64,000 bases of DNA, taken from assembly GCF_013201725.1 (NCBI RefSeq), contig NZ_CP053835.1:2542001-2606000 (forward strand), written 5' to 3'. Positions within the stretch are counted from its first letter, which is position 1, and every line of letters starts with the position of its first letter. Position numbers and translations under genes: made by a program. Shown piece by piece: positions 22,193 to 43,524 of this stretch. The DNA is from Arcobacter defluvii (GTDB taxonomy: Bacteria; Campylobacterota; Campylobacteria; Campylobacterales; Arcobacteraceae). The notes below the pieces were generated by a model. It searched no databases. It saw only the letters and a program-made list of their open reading frames with translations, and had not been told where the DNA came from.

Positions 22193-22789
22193 ATGTCTTA
22201 CGTTGTTTATAGTATAAAAGGTGGAGTTGGAAAAACAACTTTATCAGTTCAAATTTCTCAAATGTTAGAGTTTACTTATGTTACAAATGATTCACACTCA
22301 TCTGCTCATAATCTAATGCCTGAAGAAAAAGGATTTCTAGTTTCAAGTGAAGAGTATGAAGAAATACCTTTTGATGAAAAAGTTGTATATGACTTTGGAG
22401 GATTTAAAGACACAAGAATAAATGAAATTATAAAACAAGTTAAAAAAGTAATTATTCCAACTCTTACATCAATTGTTGATGTTCAAGCAACTCTTGCTAC
22501 TTTAAAAGATGTAATTGAAATAAATAAAAATATCATTTTAGTTGTAAATCGAACAAAGAACAATAATAAAGCAGTAGAATTAAAAGAATATCTTGAAGAT
22601 GAAATAAAAAAATTGTATGGAAATATAAAAATTCCAATCATTTTTGTAAGAGAATCATCTATTTTAGAAGATTCATTATTTGATTGTGAATATGTTGAAA
22701 ATAAAGCTGGAAATAATAGATTTAAAAGACATATTTATAGAAATGCCATAGAAGATATGATAAATCTAAAAAAAGTTTTGGAAAACTAA
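22193..22789 (+). CDS. ParA-family ATPase
   Basis: A 198-residue ParA/MinD-type ATPase with the deviant Walker A KGGVGKTT at residues 9-16 and the Walker A' region VVYDFGGFKD near 65. It is a short ParF-like form without an N-terminal DNA-binding domain, as in plasmid type Ib systems. It is followed after one base by a ribbon-helix-helix gene. Such pairs segregate plasmids or position protein cargo; here the pair sits in the chromosome without other plasmid genes. The ribosome site is AAGGAAG. Confidence 0.85.
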   Translation: MSYVVYSIKGGVGKTTLSVQISQMLEFTYVTNDSHSSAHNLMPEEKGFLVSSEEYEEIPFDEKVVYDFGGFKDTRINEIIKQVKKVIIPTLTSIVDVQATLATLKDVIEINKNIILVVNRTKNNNKAVELKEYLEDEIKKLYGNIKIPIIFVRESSILEDSLFDCEYVENKAGNNRFKRHIYRNAIEDMINLKKVLEN

Positions 22790-22790
22790 A

Positions 22791-23072
22791 ATGGGATACG
22801 CAGATAAACTGAAACTTAATTCATCTAAAATCAAAACAGAAGAAAAAGTTCTAAAAGAAAAAACTCCTACAAAAAAGAAAAATACTGGTCGTCCTAAAAA
22901 AGCCATAGAAGAAGTAAGAAATACTGCAATTCCAGTAGCTCTTAGTCAAAAAGAAAAAGATTGGATTGAAGAACAAGCTTTAAAAATGTCAAAAGAAATA
23001 GGAGTAAAAATCACAACTTCTGCATGGATGAGAATGACTCTTTTAAAAGATATGATAAAAGAAGAAAACTAA
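22791..23072 (+). CDS. Small basic ribbon-helix-helix-like partner of ParA
   Basis: A 93-residue protein: a lysine-rich N-terminal tail (about 1-40, with the AT-hook-like GRPKKA at 33-38), then a C-terminal part (NTAIPVALSQKEKDWIEEQALKMSKE...) with the pattern of a ribbon-helix-helix fold (short strand, two helices). This is the usual layout of ParG/ParB-type centromere-binding partners of short ParA proteins, where the tail stimulates the ATPase. The stop-start spacing to parA is 1 base. Function assigned by context and fold pattern only. Confidence 0.65.
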   Translation: MGYADKLKLNSSKIKTEEKVLKEKTPTKKKNTGRPKKAIEEVRNTAIPVALSQKEKDWIEEQALKMSKEIGVKITTSAWMRMTLLKDMIKEEN

Positions 23073-23083
23073 ATTTATTCAAA

Positions 23084-23116
23084 TGAGATAAAAGTGCGAT
23101 TAAATTTTTATAAAAT
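23084..23116 (+). promoter_or_regulatory. Phenol-regulon promoter 1 (pheA-like gene)
   Basis: Half-sites TGAGA (23084-23088) and TGCGA (23095-23099), an 11-bp direct repeat, then 11 bp, then TAAAAT (23111-23116). The ATG of the pheA-like gene is 30 bases further. The distal half-site differs from TGCGA at one base. Confidence 0.65.
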
Positions 23117-23146: not shown

Positions 23147-24166
23147 ATGAAAAAAAATATCATTGAAAATATTGATAATCAAATTTTAGATTTGATTTCG
23201 CAAAGAAATTCTTTATTATCAGAAGAAAACTTACTTGAGACTTTTGATAAAAAACACTATGAAGAGATAAGTTCAAAAGAAAAAAATATAAAAAACAAAA
23301 AGAAAATCATTAAACTTTTTAAACTCATAAACTCTTTTGAAAATACACATTCTATAATAAATAAGATTTTATATTTAGGACCAGAAGGAAGTTATACTCA
23401 AGATGCAGCTATTAAAAAGTTTGGAAATGAAAATCAATTTTTTTCAATAAACTCTATAAATAATTTGTTTGAAGAGATAAAAAAAGAAAATGCAACTTAT
23501 GCGATAATTCCTATAGAAAATAGTCTAAATGGTTTAGTAAATGATACCTTAAATGCTTTTTTGAAATATGATTTAACGGCAGTTGGTGAAATCATCTTAG
23601 ATATACATCACACTTTTTCTTCTAATTGTGAAAATATTTCAGAAATAAAAACTATCTATTCAAAAGATATAGCTTTTGATCAATGTTCACTTTTTTTAGA
23701 AAAATACAATTTACATAATATCGAACATATTTTTGTAGAATCTACTACAAAAGCTGCAAAATTAGCCTTTGAAAATCCAAATAGTGCTGCAATATGCTCA
23801 AACATCGCAGCTTTTAACAATCATTTAAATGTTATGTTTTATGATATTGAAGATAATCCTAGCAATAAAACAAGATTTTTTGTATTAAGTAAAAAAGATG
23901 AAAAAAAAGAAAAAAATATTGACTATAAAACTTCTTTTTTAATCGAACTACCTAATATTTCAGGTTCTTTAATAGATTTTTTGCAAATATTCAAAGATGA
24001 AAAAATCAATTTATATAAAATAAAATCTCATATAACAAAAGGTATTTCTAACTTCTTCATCGAATTTGATGGACATAAAGAAGATGAAAATATAAAAAAA
24101 ATATTAAAAAAATACAAGAATATAAAAATTATTGGTTCATATAAAAAAGAAATAGATGATATATAA
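23147..24166 (+). CDS. Prephenate dehydratase-like protein with degenerate chorismate mutase and ACT parts
   Basis: A 339-residue protein in the PheA layout. Residues 1-65 resemble a decayed chorismate mutase helix (IDNQILDLISQRNSLL is kept, later active-site positions are not). Residues 70-260 are a prephenate dehydratase domain with YLGPEGSYTQDAAI, YAIIPIENSLNGLVNDTLN and the catalytic T-R-F motif (NKTRFFVLS). Residues 265-330 are an ACT-like domain. The ACT phenylalanine-binding motifs are altered: GAL reads GSL and ESRP reads KSHI, so feedback inhibition may be lost. It carries a phenol-regulon promoter, unexpected for a biosynthetic gene. It may be a paralog of a normal pheA elsewhere. 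Confidence 0.75.
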   Translation: MKKNIIENIDNQILDLISQRNSLLSEENLLETFDKKHYEEISSKEKNIKNKKKIIKLFKLINSFENTHSIINKILYLGPEGSYTQDAAIKKFGNENQFFSINSINNLFEEIKKENATYAIIPIENSLNGLVNDTLNAFLKYDLTAVGEIILDIHHTFSSNCENISEIKTIYSKDIAFDQCSLFLEKYNLHNIEHIFVESTTKAAKLAFENPNSAAICSNIAAFNNHLNVMFYDIEDNPSNKTRFFVLSKKDEKKEKNIDYKTSFLIELPNISGSLIDFLQIFKDEKINLYKIKSHITKGISNFFIEFDGHKEDENIKKILKKYKNIKIIGSYKKEIDDI

Positions 24167-24304: not shown

Positions 24305-25498
24305 ATGAAAAAAAATCTTAGTTTGATTACTGCGTTATTATTAACTGCTCCTTTATTTGCAGATAATTTAAGTGATGCCTTTAGTAATGGGAAAATTAAA
24401 GGAGAGATTAAATCTATATATTCAAATTCCAATTTTTTAGGAAAATCAACATCAGATGATATAGCAACAATTGGTGGAAGTTTAGGATACAAAACAGCTG
24501 ATTTTTATGGTTTTAGTGCAGGAGCAACTTTTCAAGCTTCACACGTAATTAGTGATGACAATAACAACAATGTTTTTAGCTCTGACTTAGATGCTTCTGG
24601 TGCTGTTTTATCTGAAGCTTATTTAGAATATAAACTATCAAATACAAGTATAAAAGCTGGAAGACAATATATTTATACTCCTTTAGTTAGTACAGCAATT
24701 GATGGTAAATCTTCTGAAAGTTTATTGAAAGACTCTTTTGAAGCTTATTTATTAACTAATAATGATATTCCAAATACCACAATTGTCGCAGGATATGTAG
24801 ATAAATATCAAGCCAAAACATCAAATGATTCAGATACAGCTGATTTTGAAGAGTTTGAAGATGGAGCTTATACTTTATACATAAAAAATAATTCTATCGA
24901 AAATTTAGAATTACAAGCTCAATATCTAAATATTGATGCTATAAATTCAAATCAAGATATAAGTAATCTTTATTTCCAAGCAGATTATAAAATCGGTTTA
25001 CATACTATCTCAGCTCAATATTTATCATCAAAAGATGAATCAAAAGGTTCTGATTTTGAAGATGGTGAATTATATGGATTAAAAGCCTCAGGAGCTTTAG
25101 GTATAGGAAAACTTGGCTATATTGTAGCATTTAACTCTAGTACAAAAGATGGAGATGTAAACTTAGGAGCTGGTGCTGGAACTTCAGATACAGCATTTAC
25201 AGCAATGCCTGTAAATGGAGGTGGAGTACCTACAAGAGCAAACACAGATACTTTAGTGGGAGGGATTATTATACCTATTTTAGATGTAACAACTGTTGGT
25301 TATGCAGGTTATTCATGGTCAGATGGTGGACTAGGAGATGTTAGTGCTGTTGGAGCAATGGCAATTTATCCATTTTATAAAAACTTTTTATTAAAAATAA
25401 ATTATGAACATGTTGAAATTGAAAATACTATCGTTCCCGCTGGAATTGAAGATGGGAATACTGACGTAACAAGAGTTTATCTATCATATAACTTCTAA
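24305..25498 (+). CDS. OprD-like outer membrane porin
   Basis: A 397-residue outer membrane beta-barrel protein: signal peptide MKKNLSLITALLLTAPLFA, then DNLSDAFSNGKIKGEIKSIYSNS, the typical N-terminal strand of OprD-family porins (AF..GK..GE.r). Alternating hydrophobic strands follow, and the C-terminal RVYLSYNF has the terminal Phe needed for BAM-dependent insertion. OprD-type channels take up small organic acids and aromatics. Because it carries a phenol-regulon promoter, it probably admits phenols or related aromatics (inference). The ribosome site is AAGGAAT. Confidence 0.82.
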   Translation: MKKNLSLITALLLTAPLFADNLSDAFSNGKIKGEIKSIYSNSNFLGKSTSDDIATIGGSLGYKTADFYGFSAGATFQASHVISDDNNNNVFSSDLDASGAVLSEAYLEYKLSNTSIKAGRQYIYTPLVSTAIDGKSSESLLKDSFEAYLLTNNDIPNTTIVAGYVDKYQAKTSNDSDTADFEEFEDGAYTLYIKNNSIENLELQAQYLNIDAINSNQDISNLYFQADYKIGLHTISAQYLSSKDESKGSDFEDGELYGLKASGALGIGKLGYIVAFNSSTKDGDVNLGAGAGTSDTAFTAMPVNGGGVPTRANTDTLVGGIIIPILDVTTVGYAGYSWSDGGLGDVSAVGAMAIYPFYKNFLLKINYEHVEIENTIVPAGIEDGNTDVTRVYLSYNF

Positions 25499-26498: not shown

Positions 26499-27320
26499 CT
26501 ATTTTTCACTAAAAAAATTCAATAACAAGTTATTAAATCTATCTTTATGCTCGATTTGTGTCCAATGTCCACATTGTCCAAAAACATGTAATTGAGATTT
26601 TAAAATAAGTTGATTTAATCTAATAGAGTTTTGTAAAGGTATAACTTTATCTTCTCTTCCATGTACAATTAAAACTTCTTTATCAATTTTTTTGATGTCA
26701 TTTTCACAACTCATCATAGAATCAACACCATCTTGACGAGGAGCTGGGAACATTGAACCAAATGATTCTTGAAATCCTGGTCTAATACTTGCTTCATATC
26801 TCATTTTTGCTAAATCATCAGTTACAATACTTCTATCATAAGCAAAAATATCAAGTAACTCTTTCATATTTTCTATGCTTGGTGTATATCCCCATGCTTT
26901 ATCTAAACCATAAGTTAAATCAAAATAAACACCTACTGAGCCCATTAAAACAACTTTATTGAATCTTTGTGGATATTTAATCATAAGTGATACGGCTAAT
27001 CCACCACCAAATGAATTTCCAACTAAATTTGTTTTTTCAATTCCTAAAGCATCCATTAAATCAATAGTTTGTTGAACCCAAGTATCCATATTGTATGTAA
27101 TACCTTCTGGTCTATCTGTATAACCAAACCCCACCATATCAGGAGCAATTACCCTAAATTTTTCAGCAAGAACTGGCATAGAACCTCTCCAATTAGCAAA
27201 TGCTGAAACACCTGGTCCTGAACCATGAATAAAAAATATTGGTTCACCCTCACCTAAATCATGGTAGTTTGTATTAAAACTACCTGTTTTTATATTTTTT
27301 GCAATTTCTGGATTATTCAT
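26499..27320 (-). CDS. dmpD: 2-hydroxymuconic semialdehyde hydrolase
   Basis: An alpha/beta hydrolase of 273 residues in the meta-cleavage product hydrolase family, splitting 2-hydroxymuconic semialdehyde to 2-hydroxypenta-2,4-dienoate and formate (or related ketones from methylphenols). Visible: oxyanion/HG motif FFIHGSGPGVSAFANW near 29-44, nucleophile elbow GNSFGGG near 101-107, an Asp in VHGREDKVIPL near 219, and the catalytic His in GQCGHWTQIEHKDRF near 249. In the Pseudomonas dmp operon this gene follows dmpC; here it sits near the end of the operon after the tautomerase gene. Confidence 0.9.
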   Translation of the reverse strand: MNNPEIAKNIKTGSFNTNYHDLGEGEPIFFIHGSGPGVSAFANWRGSMPVLAEKFRVIAPDMVGFGYTDRPEGITYNMDTWVQQTIDLMDALGIEKTNLVGNSFGGGLAVSLMIKYPQRFNKVVLMGSVGVYFDLTYGLDKAWGYTPSIENMKELLDIFAYDRSIVTDDLAKMRYEASIRPGFQESFGSMFPAPRQDGVDSMMSCENDIKKIDKEVLIVHGREDKVIPLQNSIRLNQLILKSQLHVFGQCGHWTQIEHKDRFNNLLLNFFSEK

Positions 27321-27386
27321 ATTTTAATCTCTACCTTTTTTTAGTTAAATTAAACTCTTTTACTAAAAGTTTGTACGAAGTCAATT

Positions 27387-27578
27387 TTATTTCCCCAATT
27401 TTTTGACACTTTTCCCACCAATACCAAAGTGTTGTTTTGGCATTTCATTTATGATTACTCTAACACTTTCAAGTGGTGCATCAAGCGATTCAGCAATTGC
27501 AAGAGAAACTTTTTCAATTAGTTTCTCTTTTTTTTCATCACTTCTTCCCTCAATAATATTTATTGTAGCTATTGGCAT
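27387..27578 (-). CDS. dmpI: 4-oxalocrotonate (2-hydroxymuconate) tautomerase
   Basis: A 63-residue tautomerase of the 4-OT family. After loss of the initiator Met the N-terminal Pro ([13 protein letters not shown]) is the catalytic base; an Arg in EGRSDEKK and another in [17 protein letters not shown] fit the substrate-binding arginines. It converts 2-hydroxymuconate to 4-oxalocrotonate on the dehydrogenase branch of the pathway. It is 9 bases downstream of dmpH. Confidence 0.93.
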
Positions 27579-27587
27579 TTATTCTCC

Positions 27588-28376
27588 TTATACAAATCTA
27601 AATGATAAAGAGCCTAAATCTTGGAACTTAACAGTTACATTATCACCTTTTTTTACACTAACAGCAGCAGTAATTGCACCTGAAAGGATATATTCACCAG
27701 CTTTTAGTTTTTCACCTCTTTCACTTAGCATATTTGCAAGCATTGCAATTGATGTTGCAGGATGTCCTAAAACAGCAGCACCAGCTCCAAGTTGAACTAT
27801 CTCTCCATTTATTTCCATTACAACACCAAGAGTTTTTAAATCTAAATCTTTAATATCTCTCATTCTTCCACCTGTTACATATCTTGAAGATGAAGAGTTA
27901 TCAGCAATAACTGATTTTAAATCAAATTTAAAATCTTTATATCTTGAATCAATAATCTCAACAGCTGGCATAACAAAATCAGTTGCAGCTAAAACATCTC
28001 CAATATGACAACCAGGTCCTTCTAAGTCATTTTTAAGTACAAAAGCTATTTCAGCTTCAACTTTTGGATGAATTAACTCATCAATTTTAATTTCAGCTCC
28101 ATCACCAAAACTGAAATAATCAGCTAAATAACCATAACAAGGATTTGGAACACCCATTTGTTTCATTTTTGCTTGGCTAGTTAGCCCCATTTTCATACCA
28201 ACAATTTTATGACCTCTTGCTTCTTTTGCAGCTCTTGCTGTCCATTGAATATCATAAGCATCTTCATAAGTCATATCTGGATAATCATCTGTAATTTTAG
28301 TGATTTCATACGCTTTTAATTCAGCATCTTCACAATGTTTTGCTAATTTTTCTATTGTTGATTTATCTAGTGCCAT
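27588..28376 (-). CDS. dmpH: 4-oxalocrotonate decarboxylase
   Basis: A 262-residue member of the hydratase/decarboxylase (fumarylacetoacetase-like) family, similar to the protein encoded at 30301-31089. It decarboxylates 4-oxalocrotonate to 2-hydroxypenta-2,4-dienoate and works in complex with the hydratase DmpE. Family motifs include GHKIVGMKMGLTS near 54, HPKVEAEIAFVLK near 103 with the metal-ligand glutamates, and GAAVLGHPATSIAMLANML near 203. DmpH rather than DmpE is chosen from its position before the tautomerase gene. Its ATG overlaps the dmpG stop (TAATG). Confidence 0.88.
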   Translation of the reverse strand: MALDKSTIEKLAKHCEDAELKAYEITKITDDYPDMTYEDAYDIQWTARAAKEARGHKIVGMKMGLTSQAKMKQMGVPNPCYGYLADYFSFGDGAEIKIDELIHPKVEAEIAFVLKNDLEGPGCHIGDVLAATDFVMPAVEIIDSRYKDFKFDLKSVIADNSSSSRYVTGGRMRDIKDLDLKTLGVVMEINGEIVQLGAGAAVLGHPATSIAMLANMLSERGEKLKAGEYILSGAITAAVSVKKGDNVTVKFQDLGSLSFRFV

Positions 28377-29404
28377 TATATTAATCCTCTCTCTTTTGCC
28401 ATATCTAATGCTAAGTCTTCAATCATATCTTCTTGTCCACCTACCATTCCTCTTCTTCCTAGTTCTAATAAAAGTGTTCTTGCATCAATTCCATATTTTT
28501 CTTCTGCACGTCTTGCAAATAATAAAAATGATGAGTAAACTCCAGCATATCCTAAAGTAATAGAATCTCTTGAAATTCTTGTAGGTTTTCCCATAATTGG
28601 TAATGCAATATCTTCAGCTGCATCTTCGATTTTATGTAAATCAATTCCTGTTTCAACACCCATTCTATTTAATACAGCAACTAAAACTTCAGTTGCAGTA
28701 TTTCCTGAACCTGCTCCAAAACCAGCAAGTGAAGCATCAATTCTAGTTGCTCCTGCTTCAATAGCAGCAAGTGAGTTTGCAACACCCATTGACATATTGT
28801 TATGACCATGAAAACCTAACTCAATATCATCACCAAACTCTTTTTTAAGAATTGATATTCTTGCACTTACATCATCAGGTAACATATATCCAGCTGAATC
28901 CGTTGCATAGATAGTTTTTGCTCCATAAGAAACCATTTTTGCTGCTTCTTGAAGTAATTTTTCAGGAGTTACCATATGTGCCATCATCAAAAATCCAACT
29001 GTATCAAGTCCCATAGAAACAGCAGCTTTTATATGTTGAGCTGAAACATCTGCTTCTGTACAATGAGTTGCAACTCTAACAGTTGAAATACCTTTTTTAA
29101 CAGCTCTTTCTAAATCTTTTACAATTCCAATTCCAGGAAGTAAAAGAGCAGAAACTTTTGCATTTTTTACATTTGAAACCGCACATTCAATCCACTCTTC
29201 ATCAGTATGTAAACCATATCCATAATTTAAAGATGAACCACCAAGTCCATCACCATGAGTTACTTCAATCATAGGAACACCAGCTTCATCCATAGCTTTA
29301 GACATCGCAGCCATTTGGTCTAATGTAAATTGATGTCTAATAGAGTGCATACCATCTCTTAAAGACATATCATGAATTGTTACTTTTTTACCTTTTAAAT
29401 TCAT
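28376..29404 (-). CDS. dmpG: 4-hydroxy-2-oxovalerate aldolase
   Basis: A 342-residue class II aldolase of the HMG-CoA-lyase-like TIM-barrel family that cleaves 4-hydroxy-2-oxovalerate to pyruvate and acetaldehyde, channelling acetaldehyde to DmpF. Motifs: [16 protein letters not shown] near residue 8 (catalytic Arg and metal-binding Asp), [18 protein letters not shown] near 193 (metal-binding HxH). The ATG at 29404 is chosen since AAAGGAGAA precedes it; the frame remains open upstream to 29443. It starts one base after the dmpF stop. Confidence 0.95.
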
Positions 29405-29405
29405 G

Positions 29406-30290
29406 TTATTCTCCTTTGATTTTTTCAGCCATTTTTTCTGCAATGTTTGTTGCAGCTGCTGTGATAATGTCTAAGTTACCTGCATATTTTGGTAAATAAT
29501 CTCCTAATCCTTCAACTTCTAAGTAAATAGAAACTTTTTTACCATCAAAAATTGGTCCATTTTTTAGTTTATATCCTGGTACAAATTGTTGTACTTTTTT
29601 TACCATTTCATGAACTGATTTAGTAATTGCTTCTTTATTTGGTTGGGCAACTGTTTGACAATGAACAGTATCTCTCATCATAAGTGGAGGCTCTGCTGGA
29701 TTTAAAATAATAATAGCTTTACCTTTTTTTACATTTCCAACTTTTTCAATTCCTAATTTTGTAGTTTCTGTAAACTCATCAATATTTGCACGAGTTCCAG
29801 GACCTGCTGATTTAGATGCAACTGTTGCAATAATCTCTGCATAATCAACTGCTTGAACAGAAGATACAGCAGCAACCATAGGAATAGTTGCTTGTCCACC
29901 ACAAGTTACCATGTTTACGTTTTGTGTATTTTGTGCTAATAATTCATCAATATTCACAGAAGGTACACAAAATGGTCCAATAGCTGCTGGTGTTAAATCT
30001 ATAACTTTAACTCCAAGTTCAGCTAATTTTCTATTATTTTCACCATGAACATAAGCTGATGTTGCATCAAAAGCAATTTTTACCCCATCTTCTTTGATAA
30101 AAGGAAGTAATCCATCAACACCTTCATGTGTTATTTTCATTCCAGCTTCTTTTGCTTTTTTTAATCCATCTGAATCAGGGTCAATTCCAACCATCCATAA
30201 AGGATTTAAAATCTTACTTCTTTGAAGTTTATACATTAAATCTGTTCCAATATTACCAGACCCAATTAAAGCACAATTAATTTTTTCCAT
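29406..30290 (-). CDS. dmpF: Acetaldehyde dehydrogenase (acylating)
   Basis: A 294-residue enzyme that oxidises acetaldehyde to acetyl-CoA with NAD and CoA, in a tight complex with the aldolase DmpG. NAD-binding motif [13 protein letters not shown] near residue 6, catalytic Cys in [14 protein letters not shown] near 125, and [14 protein letters not shown] near 155. The ATG at 30290 is preferred over an upstream in-frame start at 30335 because AAGGATT precedes it and the Rossmann strand begins immediately. Confidence 0.95.
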
Positions 30291-30300
30291 ACATAATCCT

Positions 30301-31089
30301 TTATACAAATCTACACGAAGCAGAACCAATTCCACCTATATTTATAGTCATATTATCACCTGGTTTTATTGTTACCATTGCACATAAAGCACCTGATAAG
30401 ATAACTTCTCCAGCTTTTAAACCAACACCAAAAGAACCAAGCGTATTTGCAAGCCAAGCAACTGCATTTACTGGACTTCCAAGTGCTGCTGCACCAGCAC
30501 CTGTATGTAATAACTCACCATTACACTCTAAAGTTATTCCACAAGTTGTCAAATCAACATCTCTTGGATCAACACCTTTTCCACCAAATACAATATATCC
30601 ACAAGAAGCATTATCAGCAACTGTATCTTGAATTTTTATTTTCCAATCTTTGATTCTTGAATCAACTATTTCAAAACAAGGCATTACAAATTTTGTAACT
30701 CTTAAAACATCAGCTGTTGTAACACCTGGTCCCATTAAATCTTCTTTTAAAACAAAAGCTATCTCACCTTCTGCTTTTGGTTGAATCATCCCATTTGTTA
30801 CATTTATCTCATCACCATCAGAATAAATCATATCAGATAAAAGGTATCCAAAATCTGGTTGATGAACACCTAACATATCCATAACTACTTTTGAAGTAAC
30901 TCCTATTTTTTTACCAATAATTTTTGAATTATCATCTTCCATTCTTCTTTTTAAAAAATGATGTTGTATTGCATAAGCATCTTCAATTGTTGCATCTGTT
31001 TCTCTAGAACTTATTGGGTCAATTGCATAATTTCCCTTTAATGCTTCGTATAATTCATTTCCATATTTTTCTATTTTATCTTTTGTCAT
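30301..31089 (-). CDS. dmpE: 2-hydroxypenta-2,4-dienoate hydratase
   Basis: A 262-residue hydratase that adds water to 2-hydroxypenta-2,4-dienoate to form 4-hydroxy-2-oxovalerate. It is paralogous to DmpH in the same operon; family motifs include [40 protein letters not shown] (metal-ligand Glu) and [20 protein letters not shown]. It lies directly between dmpC and dmpF, the position of dmpE in Pseudomonas, which decides the assignment. Confidence 0.9.
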
Positions 31090-31103
31090 TTTTTATCCAA
31101 TTC

Positions 31104-32561
31104 TTACATTTTTATACAAATATTTTTTAATTCTGTATAGAATTCAAGTGAATGATGTCCACCTTCTCTTCCAATTCCTGAAGCTTTCATACCACCAAAT
31201 GGTGTTCTTAAATCTCTTAAGAACCAAGAATTTATCCATACAATTCCAGAATCAATCTGACTTGCAACTCTGTGAGCTTTATCTAAATTTTCAGTAAAAA
31301 TTGTAGAAGCTAATCCATATTTTGTATCATTTGCCATTCTAATTGCATCTTCTTCTATATCAAAAGGAGTTATATGACAACAAGGTCCAAATACCTCTTG
31401 TTGAACAACTGTTGCACTTTCTGGAAGTCCAGTCCAAATAGTTGGCTCAACCCAGAATCCATTTGATAAAGCACCTTCCATTTTAGGAGCACCACCACCT
31501 AAAACTACATTTGCACCCTCTTTTTTAGCAATTTCATAAAACTCTAAAACTTTATCTCTATGAGCTGCACTTACAAGTGGTCCCATATCAACTGATTCAT
31601 CGTGTTGAACACCAAGTTTTAACTTACTTGCTGATTCTTTTAATTTTGCAACAAATTCGTCAAAAATAGGTCTTTGAACATAAACTCTTTCAGTTCCTAA
31701 ACATACTTGTCCAGAATTTGCAAAACAAGATCTTGTTGTTTCATGTACTGCTTTTTGCATATCACAATCTGCAAAAATAATTGCTGGATTTTTACCACCA
31801 AGTTCTAAAGATACATCTCTTACACCAACAGAACAAGCTTTCATAATCATCTCACCTGTTACAGTTTCACCTGTAAATGTAATTGCATCAATATCTTTAT
31901 GAGCTGTTAGTAAGTTTCCTGTAATACTTCCTTTTCCTTGAACAACATTATAAGCACCTGCTGGAACTCCAACTTTACTCATAACTTCCCCTAGGAGTGA
32001 AGTTGTTGTAGGAGTAACTTGTGATGGTTTAACTACAACTGAGTTTCCACAAGCCATAGCAGGACCTACTTTCCAAGTCATAAGTAATAATGGTAAATTC
32101 CAAGGAGAAATAACAGCAATTACACCTTTTGGTTTTCTCATAGAATAATTCAACATTTTTTTGCCATCAGGAGTATCTGCTCTATATGCTTCATCTGCAT
32201 AAGATTTCATAGTATCAGCAAATACTTTGAAATTTGCTCCACCTCTTGGAATATCAATATGTCTTGCAATTGAGTATGGTTTTCCAGTATCTAAACACTC
32301 TGCTTCTAAAAAATCATCAAATCTTCTATTAATTTCATCTGCAACTTCATACATCAAAGCAACTCTATCATTTAACTTCATTTGTCCCCATTCACCTGTA
32401 AGTGCTGCCTTTGCTGCTGCAACTGCTGCATTTACTTCTGCTTCTCTTCCTAGTGCAACTTTAGAGATTAGTTCTGCTGTTGCTGGGTTAAAGTTATCAA
32501 AAAACTCACCACATTGTGAGTCTATAAATTGTCCGTTTATATAGTGTTGTACTTTTTTCAT
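31104..32561 (-). CDS. dmpC: 2-hydroxymuconic semialdehyde dehydrogenase
   Basis: A 485-residue NAD-dependent aldehyde dehydrogenase that oxidises the ring-cleavage product 2-hydroxymuconic semialdehyde to 2-hydroxymuconate. It has the typical ALDH motifs: ISPWNLPLLLMTWKVGPAMACGN near 152, LELGGKNPAIIFA near 253 (general-base Glu), and SGQVCLGTERVYVQ near 285 (catalytic Cys). The ending IGREGGHHSLEFYTE is typical for this subgroup. The start codon overlaps the stop of the GlcG-like gene (TAATG). Confidence 0.93.
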   Translation of the reverse strand: MKKVQHYINGQFIDSQCGEFFDNFNPATAELISKVALGREAEVNAAVAAAKAALTGEWGQMKLNDRVALMYEVADEINRRFDDFLEAECLDTGKPYSIARHIDIPRGGANFKVFADTMKSYADEAYRADTPDGKKMLNYSMRKPKGVIAVISPWNLPLLLMTWKVGPAMACGNSVVVKPSQVTPTTTSLLGEVMSKVGVPAGAYNVVQGKGSITGNLLTAHKDIDAITFTGETVTGEMIMKACSVGVRDVSLELGGKNPAIIFADCDMQKAVHETTRSCFANSGQVCLGTERVYVQRPIFDEFVAKLKESASKLKLGVQHDESVDMGPLVSAAHRDKVLEFYEIAKKEGANVVLGGGAPKMEGALSNGFWVEPTIWTGLPESATVVQQEVFGPCCHITPFDIEEDAIRMANDTKYGLASTIFTENLDKAHRVASQIDSGIVWINSWFLRDLRTPFGGMKASGIGREGGHHSLEFYTELKNICIKM

Positions 32562-32983
32562 TATTTTAATCCTATTTTTTCAATTGCATATTTTGCACAT
32601 ATAATATCTTCTTCTTCAGTTCCACCTGAAACACCAATAGCTCCAACTTTAATACCATTTTCAAAAATCGGCATCCCTCCTCCAAAAGGAATTAACCTCT
32701 GTCTATTTGAAAATCCATGTTCCAAATGAGGCATACTTTTAAAAATTGTAGTCCATTGAGCTGTATCAAATCCAAAACTAGCACTTGTATAAGCCTTATC
32801 TTTAGCAATATCTATTGAATGAATAAATGAATTTTCCATTCTAATAAAAGCCATTTCTAAACCTTTATTATCAGTAACTGAAACACTTATCGCTATATTT
32901 AACTCTTCTGCTTTTTCAATAGCACTAAGACAAGCCGTAAAGGCTGCTTGTCTTGATATAGTTTTTTCAACTATAGTATTCAT
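32561..32983 (-). CDS. GlcG/HbpS family (DUF336) protein
   Basis: A 140-residue protein with the family pattern: AFTACLSAIEKAEELNIAISVSVTDNKGLEMAFIRM, the helical KAYTSASFG segment, and a C-terminal glycine-rich FGGGMPIF...VGAIGVSGGTEEEDIICA. Members bind heme or small ligands and recur in aromatic and glycolate catabolic operons; the function there is unknown. It sits between catechol dioxygenase and the dehydrogenase, an insertion relative to the classical dmp order, and may protect or reactivate the dioxygenase or bind an intermediate (speculative). Confidence 0.8.
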   Translation of the reverse strand: MNTIVEKTISRQAAFTACLSAIEKAEELNIAISVSVTDNKGLEMAFIRMENSFIHSIDIAKDKAYTSASFGFDTAQWTTIFKSMPHLEHGFSNRQRLIPFGGGMPIFENGIKVGAIGVSGGTEEEDIICAKYAIEKIGLK

Positions 32984-32995
32984 TTAAAATCCTAA

Positions 32996-33940
32996 TTATT
33001 TATAAGCTGAAAGTGTATATGCTGTTGTAAAAGCACCATTTTCTTGACCTGTATGGTAAAAAATTCCTCTCCATAACTCATCTTCTGTCCATGTAATAGT
33101 TGGCATATCAGGTTGCATTAAATATCCAAGTCCTGCAAATGTTTCAAGTCTATGTCCTGATGGGTCAAAGAAATAAATAGTTTCTCCTCTTGTAATTCCA
33201 TGTCTTTGAGGTGTCACGTCAATTTTTACATTATGCATAGCCATAACATCTGCTGCTCTTAAGATATCATTCCATCCATCTAAGAAAAAGGCAAAGTGAT
33301 GCATACCAATTTCTGGACCTGCAACAAATGCAACATCATGGGGAGTTGAAGTTCTTGACAACCAAGTTGCAGCTTGTAATGAACCATTTGGTCCAACTGT
33401 CACTTGTTCTGCTAAATCAAACTCTAGAACTTCTTGAAAAAACTTAGTTGAAGCCATAACCCCTTCTGGTCCTTGGCACATTAATAAAACATGATCAATC
33501 CAATGGGCTTTTATTCCTCTACCTTCAAAAGGCCAAGGTCTTGGATTTGTTGAACCAACATCTTTACCTAAAAAAGTTTTATGAGCATACAAGTTAAATT
33601 CATGTCCACTTGGAGCATTAAATTTTAGAACTCTTCCACATTCAACAATAGTTCCTTCTGGTAAAATTTCAGTTTCAATTCCATATGCTTCGATTTTTTC
33701 TTTTAAATCATCAATATCTGAATCATTTTTTACTTTATAAGCTACACGATTAAATGTTGCTTCATCACTTGGTCTTAAAATCAAGCTATATTTATCCCAC
33801 TCATCCCAGCATTTCAAATACAATGTACCATCACTATCTTCTCTAGTTATATTCATTCCCATAATATTTACATAATATTCTCTAGATACGTTTATATCAA
33901 GTACGTTTATATCAATATGTCCTATTCTCATAATTCCCAT
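32996..33940 (-). CDS. dmpB: Catechol 2,3-dioxygenase
   Basis: An extradiol ring-cleavage dioxygenase of 314 residues (XylE/DmpB type I) opening catechol between C2 and C3 with Fe(II). It consists of two vicinal-oxygen-chelate modules. The Fe ligands are visible: His in KAHWIDHVLLM near 149, His in GMHHFAFFLDGW near 214, and Glu in GHRLETFAG near 266. The ATG at 33940 has AAGGA upstream. It follows the ferredoxin gene by 20 bases. Confidence 0.95.
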   Translation of the reverse strand: MGIMRIGHIDINVLDINVSREYYVNIMGMNITREDSDGTLYLKCWDEWDKYSLILRPSDEATFNRVAYKVKNDSDIDDLKEKIEAYGIETEILPEGTIVECGRVLKFNAPSGHEFNLYAHKTFLGKDVGSTNPRPWPFEGRGIKAHWIDHVLLMCQGPEGVMASTKFFQEVLEFDLAEQVTVGPNGSLQAATWLSRTSTPHDVAFVAGPEIGMHHFAFFLDGWNDILRAADVMAMHNVKIDVTPQRHGITRGETIYFFDPSGHRLETFAGLGYLMQPDMPTITWTEDELWRGIFYHTGQENGAFTTAYTLSAYK

Positions 33941-33960
33941 TTTCTATCCTTTATTATAAA

Positions 33961-34269
33961 TTAATTGCCTATTGTATAAAGCTGTGTTTTTGGTTTTGAA
34001 ATAAACTCAATTTCCATATCACTTTTTGGAAAAGTTCTACAAGCTAAAACTATATTAGAATCTTCTTCCTCTTCTGAAATATGTTTTCTATTCATTTTCG
34101 TTTTTTCATAATCACCATTATGTACCAAAATCTTACAAACACCACAAGCACCATTATGGCATCCTCTTGGTACAAGATCTGTACAAACAGATAATGAACT
34201 CATAAGATTTTTATCCTCACTACAAGATCTCTCTTTATCTTTATTTTTCACTAAGATATTATGCTTCAC
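33961..34269 (-). CDS. dmpQ: Plant-type 2Fe-2S ferredoxin (XylT/DmpQ-like)
   Basis: A 102-residue ferredoxin with the cluster motif CHNGACGVC near residues 37-45 and a fourth cysteine in VLACRTF near 78, the plant-type spacing. In Pseudomonas, DmpQ/XylT reactivates catechol 2,3-dioxygenase by reducing oxidised iron. Its position as first gene of the operon, directly before the dioxygenase gene, fits. The residues between (DYEKTKMNRKHISEEEEDSN) are typical of this group. Confidence 0.9.
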   Translation of the reverse strand: MKHNILVKNKDKERSCSEDKNLMSSLSVCTDLVPRGCHNGACGVCKILVHNGDYEKTKMNRKHISEEEEDSNIVLACRTFPKSDMEIEFISKPKTQLYTIGN

Positions 34270-34353: not shown

Positions 34354-34386
34354 ACTTTACTTTAAAAAATTCGCAGATTAATCGCA
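34354..34386 (-). promoter_or_regulatory. Phenol-regulon promoter 3 (meta-cleavage operon)
   Basis: Minus strand: TGCGA (34386-34382), 6 bp, TGCGA (34375-34371), 11 bp, TAAAGT (34359-34354). Both half-sites are perfect. The leader to the dmpQ ATG is about 80 bases and shows no clear structure. It drives at least ten genes down to the AEC transporter. Confidence 0.75.
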
Positions 34387-35420: not shown

Positions 35421-35453
35421 ATTTTATATAAAAAACTTCGCAAAATATTCGCA
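35421..35453 (-). promoter_or_regulatory. Phenol-regulon promoter 4 (mdh)
   Basis: Minus strand: TGCGA (35453-35449), 6 bp, TGCGA (35442-35438), 11 bp, TAAAAT (35426-35421), 29 bases before the mdh ATG. It lies in the divergent region shared with kinase 1, whose own -10 is at 35481-35486. Confidence 0.75.
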
Positions 35454-35503: not shown

Positions 35504-36787
35504 ATGATAAAATTTGACTTTTTTTTAAATACAAATAAAATGGCAAAAAGGTTCTCTATAACCTATATTTTTACAGGTTTATTAGGAGTAATTTTTTTAG
35601 ATAAATTCATAAAAATCTATTTAGAAAATAATTCTATTTCTTTAAATAGTATCTTTACTTTTAATATATTTTTTATAATTTCCACAGGAATTATCATCTA
35701 TTTAACTATTAATCATATGCAAAAAGTTATAAAAAATGTAGAAGAAGCTTACAATGATTTAAAAGAAAAAGATAGATTAGCTCCATATGAATTTGCACTT
35801 GATCATTCAGTTGATGAAATACATTGGTTTACTCTTGAAGGAAAATTTATCTATGTAAATGAATCTACTTGTAAAAAAGATGGTTATACAAAAGAAGAGT
35901 TTGAAAATATGTATTTAGAAGATATTGACCCAAATTTCACAAGACAAACTTCACCTATATGTATGAATGAAATAAAAAATACTCCTAACTGGAGAATAGA
36001 ATCAACCCATAGAAGAAAAGATGGTTCTGTTTATCCTGTTGAAGTTTCAGGTCATGCCTTTACATATAATGGTAAAGAGTATATTTGTGCCTTTGCAAGA
36101 GATATGACTCAAAGAATAAAAAATAGAAATAAAATAACAACGATGAACGAAGAGTTACAAAAATCTCTAAAAGAAAAAGAGATTTTATTAAAAGAAATTC
36201 ACCATAGAGTAAAAAACAATATGGAAATTATCTCATCATTACTTAATATGCAAGCATATAAATCAGATGATAAAAAATTTAAAGATTCAATGAAAGAGAG
36301 CCGAAGTAAAATCCATGCAATGGCTTTAGTTCACGAGTTTTTATACCTGGGAGAGAATTTAGCTTATATAAATGTAAATGAATATATAGAAAAGTTACTA
36401 GAAGATATAAAAGAGTTATATATTTCACAAAATACTCATATAACAATAGATTTAAACCTCGATGTTATGGAGTTTTCAATAAATAGATGTATTCAAGTGG
36501 GAATGTTGTTACATGAGTTATGTGTAAATGCTTTAAAATATGCATTTAAAGAGGATAGAGATAATTTATTATGTGTTCATATGAAATTAATTGAAGATAA
36601 AATTCATATAAAAATCCGAGATAATGGAGATGGCTTAAAAAATATAAATTCCTTAGAAAAATCTGACTCAATCGGTATGCAATTAGTTCATTCCATAGTT
36701 GATTTTCAACTTCATGGAACTATAGAATTTAAAAATAATAAAGGCTTAGAGTGCAATATTATTTTTCCAAAGAAGGAGATAAAATGA
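35504..36787 (+). CDS. PAS-domain sensor histidine kinase 1 (HisKA_2 type)
   Basis: A 427-residue membrane kinase. Two membrane helices (about 19-40 and 50-69), a PAS domain (about 95-205, ending EYICAFARDMTQR), a HisKA_2 dimerisation domain with the phospho-acceptor region LLKEIHHRVKNNMEIISSLL (His 233/234) and an HATPase domain with N-box HELCVNALKYAF near 337 and G-box RDNGDG near 372. The periplasmic loop between the helices is only about 10 residues, so a signal is more likely sensed in the membrane or by PAS, as in other aromatic sensors with PAS. Its stop overlaps the regulator ATG (ATGA). Close paralog at 44922-46220. Confidence 0.88.
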   Translation: MIKFDFFLNTNKMAKRFSITYIFTGLLGVIFLDKFIKIYLENNSISLNSIFTFNIFFIISTGIIIYLTINHMQKVIKNVEEAYNDLKEKDRLAPYEFALDHSVDEIHWFTLEGKFIYVNESTCKKDGYTKEEFENMYLEDIDPNFTRQTSPICMNEIKNTPNWRIESTHRRKDGSVYPVEVSGHAFTYNGKEYICAFARDMTQRIKNRNKITTMNEELQKSLKEKEILLKEIHHRVKNNMEIISSLLNMQAYKSDDKKFKDSMKESRSKIHAMALVHEFLYLGENLAYINVNEYIEKLLEDIKELYISQNTHITIDLNLDVMEFSINRCIQVGMLLHELCVNALKYAFKEDRDNLLCVHMKLIEDKIHIKIRDNGDGLKNINSLEKSDSIGMQLVHSIVDFQLHGTIEFKNNKGLECNIIFPKKEIK

Positions 36788-37545
36788 ATAAAATTAAAAT
36801 TTTGATAGTAGAAGATGAACCTATAATTGCATTAAATTTAAAACAAGTATTAAGTGAGTTAGGTTATGAACCATATGGAATTTCAAATAATAGATGTAAT
36901 ACATTGAAACTTTTAAATGAAAAAAAAGAAATTCCTGATTTAATCCTAATGGATATATATTTACAAGGACCAACTACTGGTATTATGTTGGCAAAAGAGT
37001 TAAAAGAGACTTTAATAAATACTCCTGTTGTATTTTTAACAGCAAACTCAGAACTTGCAACTATAAAAGAGGCTTCTGAAACTTTAGCTTATGGATATTT
37101 AATTAAACCATATAAAAAAAGTCATCTACAAGCTGCTATTGAAATTGCTATAAAAAAAGCAGATGAAGATAAAAAAAATAGTTTAAATTTAGATGCAATT
37201 AAAAATATAAATAAATCTTTAGAACAACAACTTTTATTAGAGAATGAAACTAAATCAAGAACTGTAAAACTAAAATATGGATATTTATTTGATAAAGGAA
37301 AAGATGTTTTATATTTTGGTGATGAAGCTGTTACACTAACAAATAAAGAACTTGCTATTGTTAAAATATTATGTAAAACTCCAGGTCAAAATATATCTCA
37401 AGAACAAATAGAATATGCAATTTGGCAAGATGAACCAGCTGGATATGCTGCTTTTAGGACAGTTTTATTTAGATTAAGAAATAAGATTCATAAAGATTTG
37501 ATAATAAATCAAAAAAATATAGGATATAGAATAGAAATTTTATAA
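36784..37545 (+). CDS. Response regulator 1, winged-helix output
   Basis: A 253-residue regulator. Receiver domain 1-120 with the acidic pair E10-D11, phospho-acceptor Asp 57 (LILMDIYLQGPTTG), conserved Thr in VVFLTANSE and Lys in YLIKPYKKS. After a linker (about 125-160), the C-terminal OmpR-like winged helix (about 165-253) ends AGYAAFRTVLFRLRNKIHKDLIINQ..GYRIEIL. The ATG at 36784 overlaps the kinase stop and matches the family N-terminus (MNKIKILIVEDEP). I infer it binds the TGCGA-N6-TGCGA direct repeats found upstream of eight island promoters. Confidence 0.88.
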   Translation: MNKIKILIVEDEPIIALNLKQVLSELGYEPYGISNNRCNTLKLLNEKKEIPDLILMDIYLQGPTTGIMLAKELKETLINTPVVFLTANSELATIKEASETLAYGYLIKPYKKSHLQAAIEIAIKKADEDKKNSLNLDAIKNINKSLEQQLLLENETKSRTVKLKYGYLFDKGKDVLYFGDEAVTLTNKELAIVKILCKTPGQNISQEQIEYAIWQDEPAGYAAFRTVLFRLRNKIHKDLIINQKNIGYRIEIL

Positions 37546-40194: not shown

Positions 40195-40227
40195 ATAATA
40201 CAGAATTAAATTCGCAAATTTTACGCA
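40195..40227 (-). promoter_or_regulatory. Phenol-regulon promoter 5 (tauE-like)
   Basis: Minus strand: TGCGT (40227-40223), 6 bp, TGCGA (40216-40212), 11 bp, TATTAT (40200-40195), 26 bases before the ATG. The distal half-site has one mismatch. Confidence 0.7.
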
Positions 40228-40239: not shown

Positions 40240-40273
40240 GAAGAAAGATACAATTTAAAAAAATTGTATCTTT
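40240..40273 (-). terminator. Terminator of the phenol hydroxylase operon
   Basis: A perfect 13-bp stem (AAAGATACAATTT / AAATTGTATCTTT, 40244-40256 with 40261-40273) that begins within the dmpP stop codon. It is followed on the minus strand by CTTCATTTTC. It insulates the operon from promoter 5 just downstream. Confidence 0.75.
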
Positions 40274-41331
40274 TATATAGATTTAAAAAGAGGACTTTTT
40301 ACTTTATCACTGTGTAAATCAGCTTTTGAGAAGAATTTTTCAGTATGTATATCTTTTTCAAATAATCTTCCTTGCATAAGGGCTGTAATACAAGCTTCAC
40401 TCATCATTGGAGGTCCACATAAATATGCTTTATTTCCTGCAAATTGATTGTTATAAAGTTTTTTAGCTACATCATTTGTAAAACCTACTTCACCGCTCCA
40501 TGCAGGATTTTCATTATTTGATAAAACAGGAATATACTTAAAATTATCATATTTCTTTTCTAAATCTCTGAACATATCTGCATAATATAACTCTTCTTCA
40601 TTTCTTGCTCCATGAAAAAGTGTAATTGGTAAAGTACATCCATTTTCTAACTCATCTAAAATCATAGATTTTGGACTTGATAATCCTGAACCACCTGCAA
40701 AAAATATCATTGGTTTATTCGCACTTCTTTTTACAAAAAATCTTCCAAAAGGTCCTGTTATTTTTCTTCTATCACCAACTTTTACATTTTGATGAATCCA
40801 AGGAGTTGCTTCACCATCTGGAATAAGCCCAATATTTAACTCTATGATTTTTCCAGTACTTGGTTGATTTGCTAGTGAAAATGCTCTTGGTTCATCAAAT
40901 CCTGGAACATGATAATTTATATATTGTCCTGCTTGAAAATCCAACTCTTCATCAAGTTCAATCCAAAGTCCTAAAATTCTTGGAGTTAACATCTCTCTTT
41001 TTATAACTGTTCCCCAAATATCTTTTATAGGTATATTTCGAGCATCTACGTCCACATCAATATCTGCTTCAATCACAACATCATCAACTACTGTTGCTGT
41101 ACAAGCTAAACAATATCCATCTTCTCTCTCACTCTCCATTAAAGCAAAATATGAAGCATCACCTAAATCAACCTCACCTTCTAAAACTTCTACTTTACAA
41201 GTTCCACAAAGTCCATGATTACAAGCATGAGGAAGATAAACACCTTGTCTTAAAGCAGCATCAAGAAGGGTTTGTCCTTCTTGAACTTCTACTATATCAC
41301 CTGTTGGTTCTATCTCTAATTTACAAGCCAT
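40273..41331 (-). CDS. dmpP: Phenol hydroxylase reductase component
   Basis: A 352-residue NADH oxidoreductase passing electrons through FAD and a 2Fe-2S centre to the hydroxylase. N-terminal plant-type ferredoxin domain (Cys motif HACNHGLCGTCKVEV near residue 36, fourth Cys in YCLACTATV near 73), then FAD domain (EPRAFSLANQP near 148) and NAD domain (IFFAGGSGLSSPKSMILDEL near 208; YLCGPPMMSEACI near 304). It abuts dmpO. The closing operon position is as in Pseudomonas. Confidence 0.95.
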   Translation of the reverse strand: MACKLEIEPTGDIVEVQEGQTLLDAALRQGVYLPHACNHGLCGTCKVEVLEGEVDLGDASYFALMESEREDGYCLACTATVVDDVVIEADIDVDVDARNIPIKDIWGTVIKREMLTPRILGLWIELDEELDFQAGQYINYHVPGFDEPRAFSLANQPSTGKIIELNIGLIPDGEATPWIHQNVKVGDRRKITGPFGRFFVKRSANKPMIFFAGGSGLSSPKSMILDELENGCTLPITLFHGARNEEELYYADMFRDLEKKYDNFKYIPVLSNNENPAWSGEVGFTNDVAKKLYNNQFAGNKAYLCGPPMMSEACITALMQGRLFEKDIHTEKFFSKADLHSDKVKSPLFKSI

Positions 41332-41691
41332 TTATGCTCCTACTTTTCCTGTTAAACTTGGTGTTATAAAAGTAATAAATGATTTATGTCCAACACCATT
41401 TTCTTTTAAACTTTTAGAAAAATCAGGAACTACTACTTTTCCATCTATTTCCCAAATAACTTCTGTTTTATCAAAATCTAAATCTTTAAAATCAGGTTCA
41501 ACTTTATAACATAATGGAATAATATCTGATACTAATGCACCAAAAGGCATATCAGGAGGAAGAGGAAATGCTCTAGGAGAGCAAACAACTCTATGTCCAT
41601 ACCAATAAATAAATACTAATTGATTTCCATGAAATTTATCTAAACTATCTTTCATTATGATTGGATATTCTCCAATTGATTGAATTGCCAT
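41332..41691 (-). CDS. dmpO: Phenol hydroxylase component DmpO
   Basis: A 119-residue subunit of the oxygenase, corresponding to the gamma-like small subunit of the (alpha-beta-gamma)2 hydroxylase. Family-specific stretches: YPIIMKDSLDKFHGNQLVFIYWYGHRVVCSPRAFPLP and ISLP-like PFGALVSDIIPLCY. It lies 11 bases after dmpN and directly before dmpP. Confidence 0.92.
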   Translation of the reverse strand: MAIQSIGEYPIIMKDSLDKFHGNQLVFIYWYGHRVVCSPRAFPLPPDMPFGALVSDIIPLCYKVEPDFKDLDFDKTEVIWEIDGKVVVPDFSKSLKENGVGHKSFITFITPSLTGKVGA

Positions 41692-41702
41692 TTTTTCTCC
41701 TT

Positions 41703-43217
41703 TTATTTATTTTTTAATTTATTCCACATAGCTTCATCAGGTGAACCTACATAATCCATATTATCAACACCATGTTCTATTTTATACCATTTTAAAACTT
41801 CTGGGATAGTTGCTCCTCCACAGTTTCCTTGGAAAATTTGATGAGGAGGTAACCAAGCTTGAATATATTTTTCAGGCTGTGCATCAAATATCTCTTTACA
41901 ACCATCTGAACAAGTATGGAAAATTTCTCCATTAAACTCTGAAGTTTTATGTGTATAAACGTGAGGATTTCCACCTTCAATATCTGTAAATCCTAATGGA
42001 ATCTGACAAGTTTGACAAACTAAAGGTAAAACTTCTGAATAAAATCTTTCACCTTTTTTCTCTAATTCTATATATCTTTCAAACATTGGTCTATAATATT
42101 TATCAAAAGTATCTGGATATTTTTCACTTAACCAATTCATTTTATTCTCATCTGGCATCCAAGTATGGAAAGCCGCTGCATTTGTATGATTATAAAAAAT
42201 ATTCCATACTTGATGAGATAAATGTCCTTTTTCTGCAACAATTGTATTAATTAATTTTTCTGGAACTTTAATTCCATATTTTTCTAAATCTTTATAAAGT
42301 GCCATACAGTTTTGTTCGATATATAACTCAACTGCTTCACCCCATGAAGTTGGAGAGTTAGGTAACATATAATCCATCATCATAGCCACAAGACCTAACA
42401 TTCTATAACCTCTCCATAACCATTTATCCATCCATTTTTGAACAATTGGTACATTTTGAGCATCTTGTTCTAACATAAATTTAATAGCAGAAAGTCCAAG
42501 TGTCATATGTCTTGATTCATCACTTTGAGCAGAGAACCCAAATGTAACAGTTGCCATATCTCCGTTATATGCAGCTCCACTCATAAATGGTACAAATAAC
42601 AGACTCGTTAAAACAAACTCAAAAGAGAATGAGATAGCTGTTAAATACTCAAAAGGACCAGCTGTACTTGCATCATCACCAAATGATTTTGGAACAGATA
42701 AATACCAAATTCTATCATGCATAGTGCTATAATCATGAAAACCATCAAAATATTTATTATAATGACTCATAGTATGAACTTGAGTTTGGAAATGTCTTAA
42801 CTCATCAATAGCTTGCATTTGACAAGCAATTGAAGCACCTTCACCTCTAAAAGCACGTGCTGCGTGAGAAAAACCTTGAACAACTTTATATTCAAGTGGT
42901 GTTACACCTGTTAAAAATAGTTTTAATGCATTTACATATCTTGCATCAGAAATATTTTTTTGTGCATTATTTTGTGCAAATGCATCAATAATTGAATAAA
43001 GTTTTTTATCTTTTTCAGCTTGTAATTTCCAATAAGAATCCATAGTCATTCTAAATGGGTCTTCCCAAGCTTCCCAATCATGGATTTTTAATCCTTCCAT
43101 CTCTAAAAAAGGAAAAACATCTTCTTCTTTTTGATAAGTTGGATTCCAACCAAGTCTTGTCATATATTTATATGCGTCTTTTTTATTTAATCTTTTTTTT
43201 CTAGGCTCTACACTCAT
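41703..43217 (-). CDS. dmpN: Phenol hydroxylase large oxygenase subunit (diiron)
   Basis: A 504-residue alpha subunit that hydroxylates phenol to catechol at a carboxylate-bridged diiron site. The two ExxH motifs are visible: QAIDELRHFQTQ near residue 139 and SDESRHMTLG near 234, each preceded at the usual distance by a glutamate (FRGEGAS near 120 for the first). Near the C-terminus a YHS-type domain is present (LVCQTCQIPLGF ... GEIFHTCSDGCKEIF), as in other DmpN proteins. The ribosome site is AAGGAAAA. Confidence 0.96.
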   Translation of the reverse strand: MSVEPRKKRLNKKDAYKYMTRLGWNPTYQKEEDVFPFLEMEGLKIHDWEAWEDPFRMTMDSYWKLQAEKDKKLYSIIDAFAQNNAQKNISDARYVNALKLFLTGVTPLEYKVVQGFSHAARAFRGEGASIACQMQAIDELRHFQTQVHTMSHYNKYFDGFHDYSTMHDRIWYLSVPKSFGDDASTAGPFEYLTAISFSFEFVLTSLLFVPFMSGAAYNGDMATVTFGFSAQSDESRHMTLGLSAIKFMLEQDAQNVPIVQKWMDKWLWRGYRMLGLVAMMMDYMLPNSPTSWGEAVELYIEQNCMALYKDLEKYGIKVPEKLINTIVAEKGHLSHQVWNIFYNHTNAAAFHTWMPDENKMNWLSEKYPDTFDKYYRPMFERYIELEKKGERFYSEVLPLVCQTCQIPLGFTDIEGGNPHVYTHKTSEFNGEIFHTCSDGCKEIFDAQPEKYIQAWLPPHQIFQGNCGGATIPEVLKWYKIEHGVDNMDYVGSPDEAMWNKLKNK

Positions 43218-43248
43218 AATATTTTCCTTTATCTATGTAAATTATTTA

Positions 43249-43524
43249 TTAATTATTCCAGTACACAACAAATTCATCATCTGTTTCTTCTATTTGACCA
43301 CCTAAAGAAATAAGTACTAATTGTAACTCTTCAGGATCCCAACTTCGTCCCAATTTCTCACTTACAGTTGATGCTTTCACAGTAATTTTTTCAGGTCGTT
43401 CAATTTGAATCATTGCTGGTTTATTTGTAATTACTACTCCTTCATTGTCTTCTTTTATTGCTTCTGCAATAGTTCTACCATCTTCCGTTGCTTGAAGACA
43501 TAATAATGCTATACTCGCTGACAT
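43249..43524 (-). CDS. dmpM: Phenol hydroxylase activator protein
   Basis: A 91-residue cofactor-less effector (MmoB/DmpM family) that binds the oxygenase and tunes the diiron site. Typical segments: ALLCLQATEDGRTIAEAI near 7-24, IERPEKITVKASTVSEKLG near 46-64, and WDPEELQLVLISLGGQIEETDDEFVVYWN at the end. It lies between dmpL and dmpN as in Pseudomonas. Confidence 0.93.
   Translation of the reverse strand: MSASIALLCLQATEDGRTIAEAIKEDNEGVVITNKPAMIQIERPEKITVKASTVSEKLGRSWDPEELQLVLISLGGQIEETDDEFVVYWNN

Follow-up and report, generated by a model that had tools for sequence, protein, structure and literature searches.

The window analysed here is a 64-kb stretch (G000:C1:2542001-2606000) of a 3.02-Mb single-contig genome of Arcobacter defluvii, and coordinates without a contig name refer to positions within it. 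A preliminary description of this DNA had claimed a gene resembling a prephenate dehydratase (PDT) gene at 23147-24166; the list of open reading frames confirms an intact forward-strand frame there, encoding 339 aa, and the gene is called pheA2 below. It lies beside genes for phenol catabolism, and the genes and protein regions on which the argument rests are the following.

23147-24166, forward strand: pheA2, PDT paralogue of 339 aa (open reading frame, PF00800 match of 172 bits, AlphaFold2 model)
23147-23356, forward strand: vestigial chorismate mutase region of pheA2, aa 1-70, with active-site residues lost (alignment; CM_2 E = 0.16; three helices in the model)
23366-23899, forward strand: PDT catalytic domain, aa 74-251, with the equivalents of N160, S208, Q215 and T278 intact (Pfam, alignment)
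23936-24115, forward strand: ACT domain, aa 264-323, with GSLI and KSHI (Pfam, alignment)
24305-25498, forward strand: OprD-like porin gene (Pfam; directly downstream of pheA2 in relatives)
26499-34269, reverse strand: meta-cleavage (lower) pathway, encoding a hydrolase, DmpI, DmpH, DmpG, DmpF, DmpE, DmpC, an HbpS-like protein, catechol 2,3-dioxygenase and a ferredoxin
35504-37545, forward strand: HK1-RR1, a PAS histidine kinase and an OmpR/PhoB-type response regulator (Pfam)
40273-44785, reverse strand: phenol hydroxylase genes dmpKLMNOP
44922-46978, forward strand: HK2-RR2, a second kinase-regulator pair, divergent from phenol hydroxylase (Pfam)

DmpN scored 748 bits against PHN and 129 bits against toluene monooxygenase, and the cluster is predicted to encode a true phenol hydroxylase and a complete meta-cleavage pathway. 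Because all steps are present, the idea that pheA2 fills a missing step of phenol degradation was rejected. The cluster has dmpKLMNOP and meta-cleavage genes in common with the dmp clusters of proteobacteria, but differs from them in having PAS kinase-response regulator pairs, a direct-repeat operator and a PDT gene; a DmpR-like regulator of the sigma54 type was not noticed at the window phenol locus. RR1 and RR2 are 70% identical, and most of the clusters that were read have a kinase-regulator pair in divergent orientation to the phenol hydroxylase operon.

In Pfam searches, PheA2 scored 172 bits against PF00800, for which the curated cut-off is 25.2, and gave a weak, sub-threshold match to the ACT domain and an E-value of 0.16 for the chorismate mutase family CM_2. 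The AlphaFold2 model (mean pLDDT of 85) found its best structural matches among solved PDTs, with phenylalanine-bound structures ranking first. The protein was aligned with 72 canonical pheA products of the lineage, its eight orthologues (class A, nine sequences including PheA2), 17 class B proteins, which are unrelated monofunctional PDTs, and E. coli PheA, whose residues were numbered from the annotated record. None of the nine class A proteins retains the mutase residues R11, K39, R51 and E52 of E. coli PheA, which essentially every canonical sequence has, while R28 is kept in six of the nine; together with the CM_2 result, these losses bear out the earlier claim that the chorismate mutase part is eroded. 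The PDT residues N160, S208, Q215 and T278-R-F are kept throughout class A, and the dehydratase T-R-F motif that had been said to persist in pheA2 is indeed present.

The preliminary description had proposed to look for a second, canonical pheA, and such a gene was found in the same genome: pheA1 (G000:C1:2745193-2746239, reverse strand) encodes a canonical fused chorismate mutase-PDT of 359 aa and has genes reading as lysA and hisC on either side. pheA2 is thus not the only pheA of this organism, which leaves the earlier reading standing on this point. The genome also encodes a free-standing chorismate mutase of 98 aa and TyrA, so that a PDT without a mutase would not be short of prephenate. 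PheA2 has its PDT and ACT domains, its catalytic residues and its ancestry in common with bifunctional P-proteins (E. coli PheA and, here, PheA1), but it is without the mutase active site, evolves faster, and is encoded beside phenol catabolism genes with which it is apparently co-controlled. Conversely, it has the fold, the PDT-ACT architecture and the want of a working mutase of the monofunctional PDTs 2QMX, 2QMW, 3MWB and 6VH5, but differs from these in its vestigial mutase-derived N-terminus, in a separate origin by P-protein decay and in its link to a regulon.

Action on a different substrate, which had also been suggested for this gene, is not indicated by these results. Structures of GqqA (7AM0 and 7ALZ) are among the matches of the PheA2 model, and GqqA is a PDT-like quorum-quenching acylase, an instance of the other activities that PDT-like folds can have (PMC8192741); however, PheA2 derives from the lineage's own pheA, all of the tested catalytic positions are kept, the best matches are phenylalanine-bound PDTs, and the phenol pathway leaves no step vacant. 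It is therefore very improbable that PheA2 acts on arogenate or another compound in place of prephenate.

The ligand motifs of the ACT domain, GAL and ESRP, had been described as altered to GSL and KSHI in pheA2, and this claim was not confirmed. The change of GAL to GSL is a real difference, as the position is occupied by serine in seven and cysteine in two of the nine class A proteins, compared with A in 43, V in 16, G in five, I in three, T in three and S in two of the 72 canonical sequences; all nine have substitutions specific to their class around the ligand motif (A/V to S/C and V to I). All 72 canonical sequences of the lineage, however, have KSHI at the ESRP position, the organism's own pheA1 included, and the motif is therefore no alteration of pheA2. 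GSL occurs, too, in 2QMX, a PDT of Chlorobium tepidum that L-Phe inhibits. Because KSHI is lineage-wide and serine is found in two canonical proteins and in 2QMX, feedback sensitivity is not predictable from these motifs, and the loss of feedback control that they had been taken to imply is not readable from them.

The retention of an ACT domain with class-specific changes near its ligand motif, and of PDT/ACT surfaces that remain close to those of PheA1, would also fit a PheA2 with a regulatory function rather than one in supply, in which the protein forms mixed oligomers with PheA1 via PDT/ACT, or its ACT domain senses an aromatic compound of the phenol pathway, and thereby tunes the phenylalanine branch. 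Such a function is unlikely, given that a pure regulator would not need the catalytic residues, all of which are kept where tested, and that a normal Phe-inhibited PDT has the same GSL.

Comparison of promoters yielded a predicted operator, TGCGAWT-N4-TGCGAWT, that is, two GCGAWT half-sites at 11-bp spacing; an initial guess at the motif, GCGATTAAA repeated, was too narrow and was replaced after this comparison. Genome-wide counts were obtained by pattern searches, and a profile was trained on 39 sites of other genomes, none of them from the genome of the window; in this profile a -10-like TA...T comes about 9 nt after the half-sites. The window contains the following sites, with each operator found by both pattern search and profile.

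23084-23101, forward strand: predicted operator of pheA2, TGAGATAAAAGTGCGATT, two mismatches from the consensus
23111-23116, forward strand: -10-like TAAAAT of pheA2, in register with the profile's -10 columns and located 30 bases ahead of the start codon
24176-24193, forward strand: predicted operator of the porin gene
34369-34386, reverse strand: predicted operator of the ferredoxin-led meta-cleavage operon
35436-35453, reverse strand: predicted operator of a malate dehydrogenase gene
40210-40227, reverse strand: predicted operator of a TauE-like permease gene
44846-44863, reverse strand: predicted operator of the phenol hydroxylase operon
48965-48982, reverse strand: predicted operator of a chemoreceptor gene (MCP2)
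49003-49020, forward strand: predicted operator of an SDR gene

When up to two mismatches were allowed, 49 operator sites were found in the organism's own genome, compared with seven for a reversed control pattern; five of the seven best sites of the genome, and five of its six exact operator cores, fall inside the 64-kb window. In other genomes, with at most one mismatch, 473 kb of phenol loci contained 42 sites, 523 kb of control loci contained none, and the reversed pattern gave none; most of the 42 stand in front of the phenol hydroxylase operon, the ferredoxin-led lower operon, the porin gene or the malate dehydrogenase gene. All eight window sites stood above background in the profile. 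The pheA2 site is the weakest of the eight, and its score of 12.8 was reached by one of 1.04 million control positions. With this operator preceding the TAAAAT, a promoter-like element stands where a promoter had been claimed, 30 bases upstream of the gene. Upstream of the pheA2 orthologues, operator scores of 16-26 were obtained in six genomes (G004, G017, G018, G020, G062 and G079); the site in G028 was weak, and in G002 the profile gave no significant operator upstream of pheA2.

It could be argued from the two mismatches and the low rank of the pheA2 site that the link to the regulon is accidental, the site being a chance match near the porin operator; with a score so rare among control positions and clear upstream sites, in the same orientation, in six orthologues, this is the least credible of the alternatives considered here. 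Altogether, the link to the regulon has stronger support than could be known when the preliminary description was made.

The PhoB box, or pho box, consists of two half-sites at 11-bp spacing, placed about 10 bp before the -10 element. The operator described here shares its spacing and its placement before the -10 with these boxes of PhoB/OmpR-type regulators, but its half-site is GCGAWT and its binder is one that we infer: the OmpR/PhoB-type regulators RR1 and RR2, encoded beside PAS kinases, are the likely candidates. Two further observations concern operator sites away from the window cluster. A copy of the operator, perfect or with one mismatch, was seen in two genera at the 3' end of a panE-like gene (2-dehydropantoate reductase), pointing antisense into the gene (L003 1287-1304, which is G000:C1:2739286-2739303, forward strand; L118 2292-2309 in G032, reverse strand). 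In G002, the phenol cluster contains a second, divergent multicomponent monooxygenase (L122 6746-10077), whose identity is 23% to DmpL and 25% to DmpN, and which has an operator-like site upstream.

Class A genes were found in nine of the 104 genomes of the family, seven of which also carry the phenol hydroxylase gene dmpN, and the phenol-hydroxylase cluster lies within about 15-25 kb of pheA2 in seven of the nine carriers. When carriers were shuffled within genera, 2.2 co-occurrences of class A and dmpN were expected compared with the seven seen (p = 5e-5), an excess that linkage alone could produce. The gene order conserved in the seven linked carriers is pheA2-porin-(AEC permease)-hydrolase-dmpHGFE, with the AEC gene not seen in G079, and the porin gene, or its stump in G017, is always directly downstream of pheA2 in carriers; in G028 the contig stops within the porin gene. 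These results, and a predicted operator common to both, support the earlier claim that a biosynthetic PDT paralogue adjoins a phenol-catabolism regulon. The linkage is nevertheless not one of necessity, since two genomes of high completeness with a phenol cluster (G007 and G083) have no second PDT of either class, so that pheA2 is not indispensable; a search of the sequence surrounding the phenol clusters of G007, G083, G123, G090 and G068, as far as it was read, gave no remnants of pheA2.

G017 has lost its phenol cluster by deletion and keeps an intact pheA2, with a short porin stump that runs into a fragment of RR2, 96% identical to the RR2 of the window. At the deletion scar (L071 9288-10946) the start of the porin gene is fused to the RR2 fragment, and pheA2 occupies the same chromosomal site, flanked by a parA-like pair upstream and by MCP2-SDR-leuB downstream. 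In the window, the region directly upstream of pheA2 (22193-23072) encodes a ParA-like ATPase and a small basic partner, a plasmid-partition-like pair that is also present in G017, and in G018 the entire phenol cluster, pheA2 included, is located on the smaller of two contigs (C2, 189 kb; L074/L125), which is plasmid-like. When window positions 41703-44536 were compared with G020 (L124), DmpL and DmpN were 100% identical, against identities of about 80-95% for the lower-pathway proteins and about 52% for pheA2. The phenol cluster appears to be a mosaic, with an upper operon that was by all appearances recently exchanged.

The nine class A sequences form a single clade with support of 100/100 within the pheA of Arcobacteraceae; they branch off beside the long row P_L030, at a point that the tree does not fix exactly. 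Across the PDT-ACT part, pairwise dN/dS was 0.05-0.22 among the eight class A genes outside the window, and the mutase parts of these orthologues are at most 50% identical, the closest pair excepted. The window pheA2 is the fastest-evolving of the nine, with a tip branch of 0.96 and dN/dS of 0.19-0.34, ratios that are rough, given synonymous distances close to 1 or higher for this copy. Judged by these comparisons of sequence, pheA2 is a duplicate of the lineage's own bifunctional chorismate mutase-PDT in which the mutase half is evidently dead, and purifying selection maintains the PDT-ACT part alongside decay of the mutase part.

A decayed mutase half and a very long branch for the window copy, along with phenol-cluster genomes that are without pheA2, could likewise be expected if the gene were a passenger, or a decaying duplicate, travelling with the catabolic cluster and having no role in growth on phenol. 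This is rather improbable, because purifying selection acts on the PDT-ACT part of the orthologues, because even the fast window copy has an open frame and keeps 66 of the 71 positions that are invariant in all other sequences, and because pheA2 is intact in G017 after deletion of the phenol cluster, though that deletion may be recent.

Paralogy, an intact PDT site, a dead mutase site, purifying selection, conserved linkage and an operator are thus read from the DNA, and the explanation that we consider probable is that pheA2 encodes a phenol-induced monofunctional PDT, a duplicate with a dead mutase half that was captured by the phenol regulon and adds phenylalanine-branch capacity. For the response-regulator binding, phenol induction, PDT activity and physiological reason that this entails, we infer the following course. 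Phenol or a product of it would activate a PAS kinase-regulator pair, and RR1 or RR2 would bind the two-half-site operator, which overlaps the -35 position. The regulator would then switch on phenol hydroxylase, the meta-cleavage operon and the porin, for uptake and breakdown of phenol, together with pheA2. Prephenate made by the mutase of PheA1 or by the free-standing 98-aa chorismate mutase would be converted to phenylpyruvate by PheA2, which would add capacity to the phenylalanine branch during growth on phenol, independently of pheA1 expression. A possible reason is that pheA1 may be under-expressed or inhibited during such growth. Extra phenylalanine supply is a plausible role for PheA2, and its association with the regulon suggests that growth on phenol calls for extra phenylalanine-making capacity; a phenylalanine hydroxylase was rejected as the cause of such a need, as none is encoded in the genome.

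The class B PDTs, of about 286 aa and about 30% identical to class A, extend this pattern. Twelve of their 18 carriers have dmpN, and none of these 12 phenol-hydroxylase genomes has class A; the two classes never occur in the same genome among the 104 of the family. One class or the other is present in 19 of 24 phenol-hydroxylase genomes compared with eight of 80 others, with one class B count (G119) resting on a partial match, and shuffling within genera gave an expectation of 11 for the 19 seen, a number never reached in 20,000 trials. Membership of class B in the regulon was rejected, as no correctly oriented upstream operator was found in 17 loci; near the class B genes of G032 and G094 there are reversed operator sites, which are directed away from these genes. 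The class B loci (L118, L130, L132 and L097-L110) are often on another contig. Given this location, the want of an operator and the partial match in G119, the pattern is a lead rather than a result. It is a tentative possibility that phenol catabolism makes a second PDT under separate control necessary, and that this need was met twice independently in Arcobacteraceae, by class A and by class B.

In the open-access literature that was searched, no report was found that joins phenol hydroxylase or phenol degradation clusters with prephenate dehydratase, nor one that joins phenol hydroxylase with Campylobacterota or with degradation by Arcobacter. The analysis brings to light a predicted two-component regulon for phenol, with a well-defined operator, in Campylobacterota, a phylum for which the searched literature on phenol hydroxylases is sparse. 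The predicted common promoter links aromatic catabolism to aromatic amino-acid biosynthesis, a connection of which that literature held no report. If the proposed function of PheA2 holds, phenol or its products would limit the phenylalanine branch in these bacteria.
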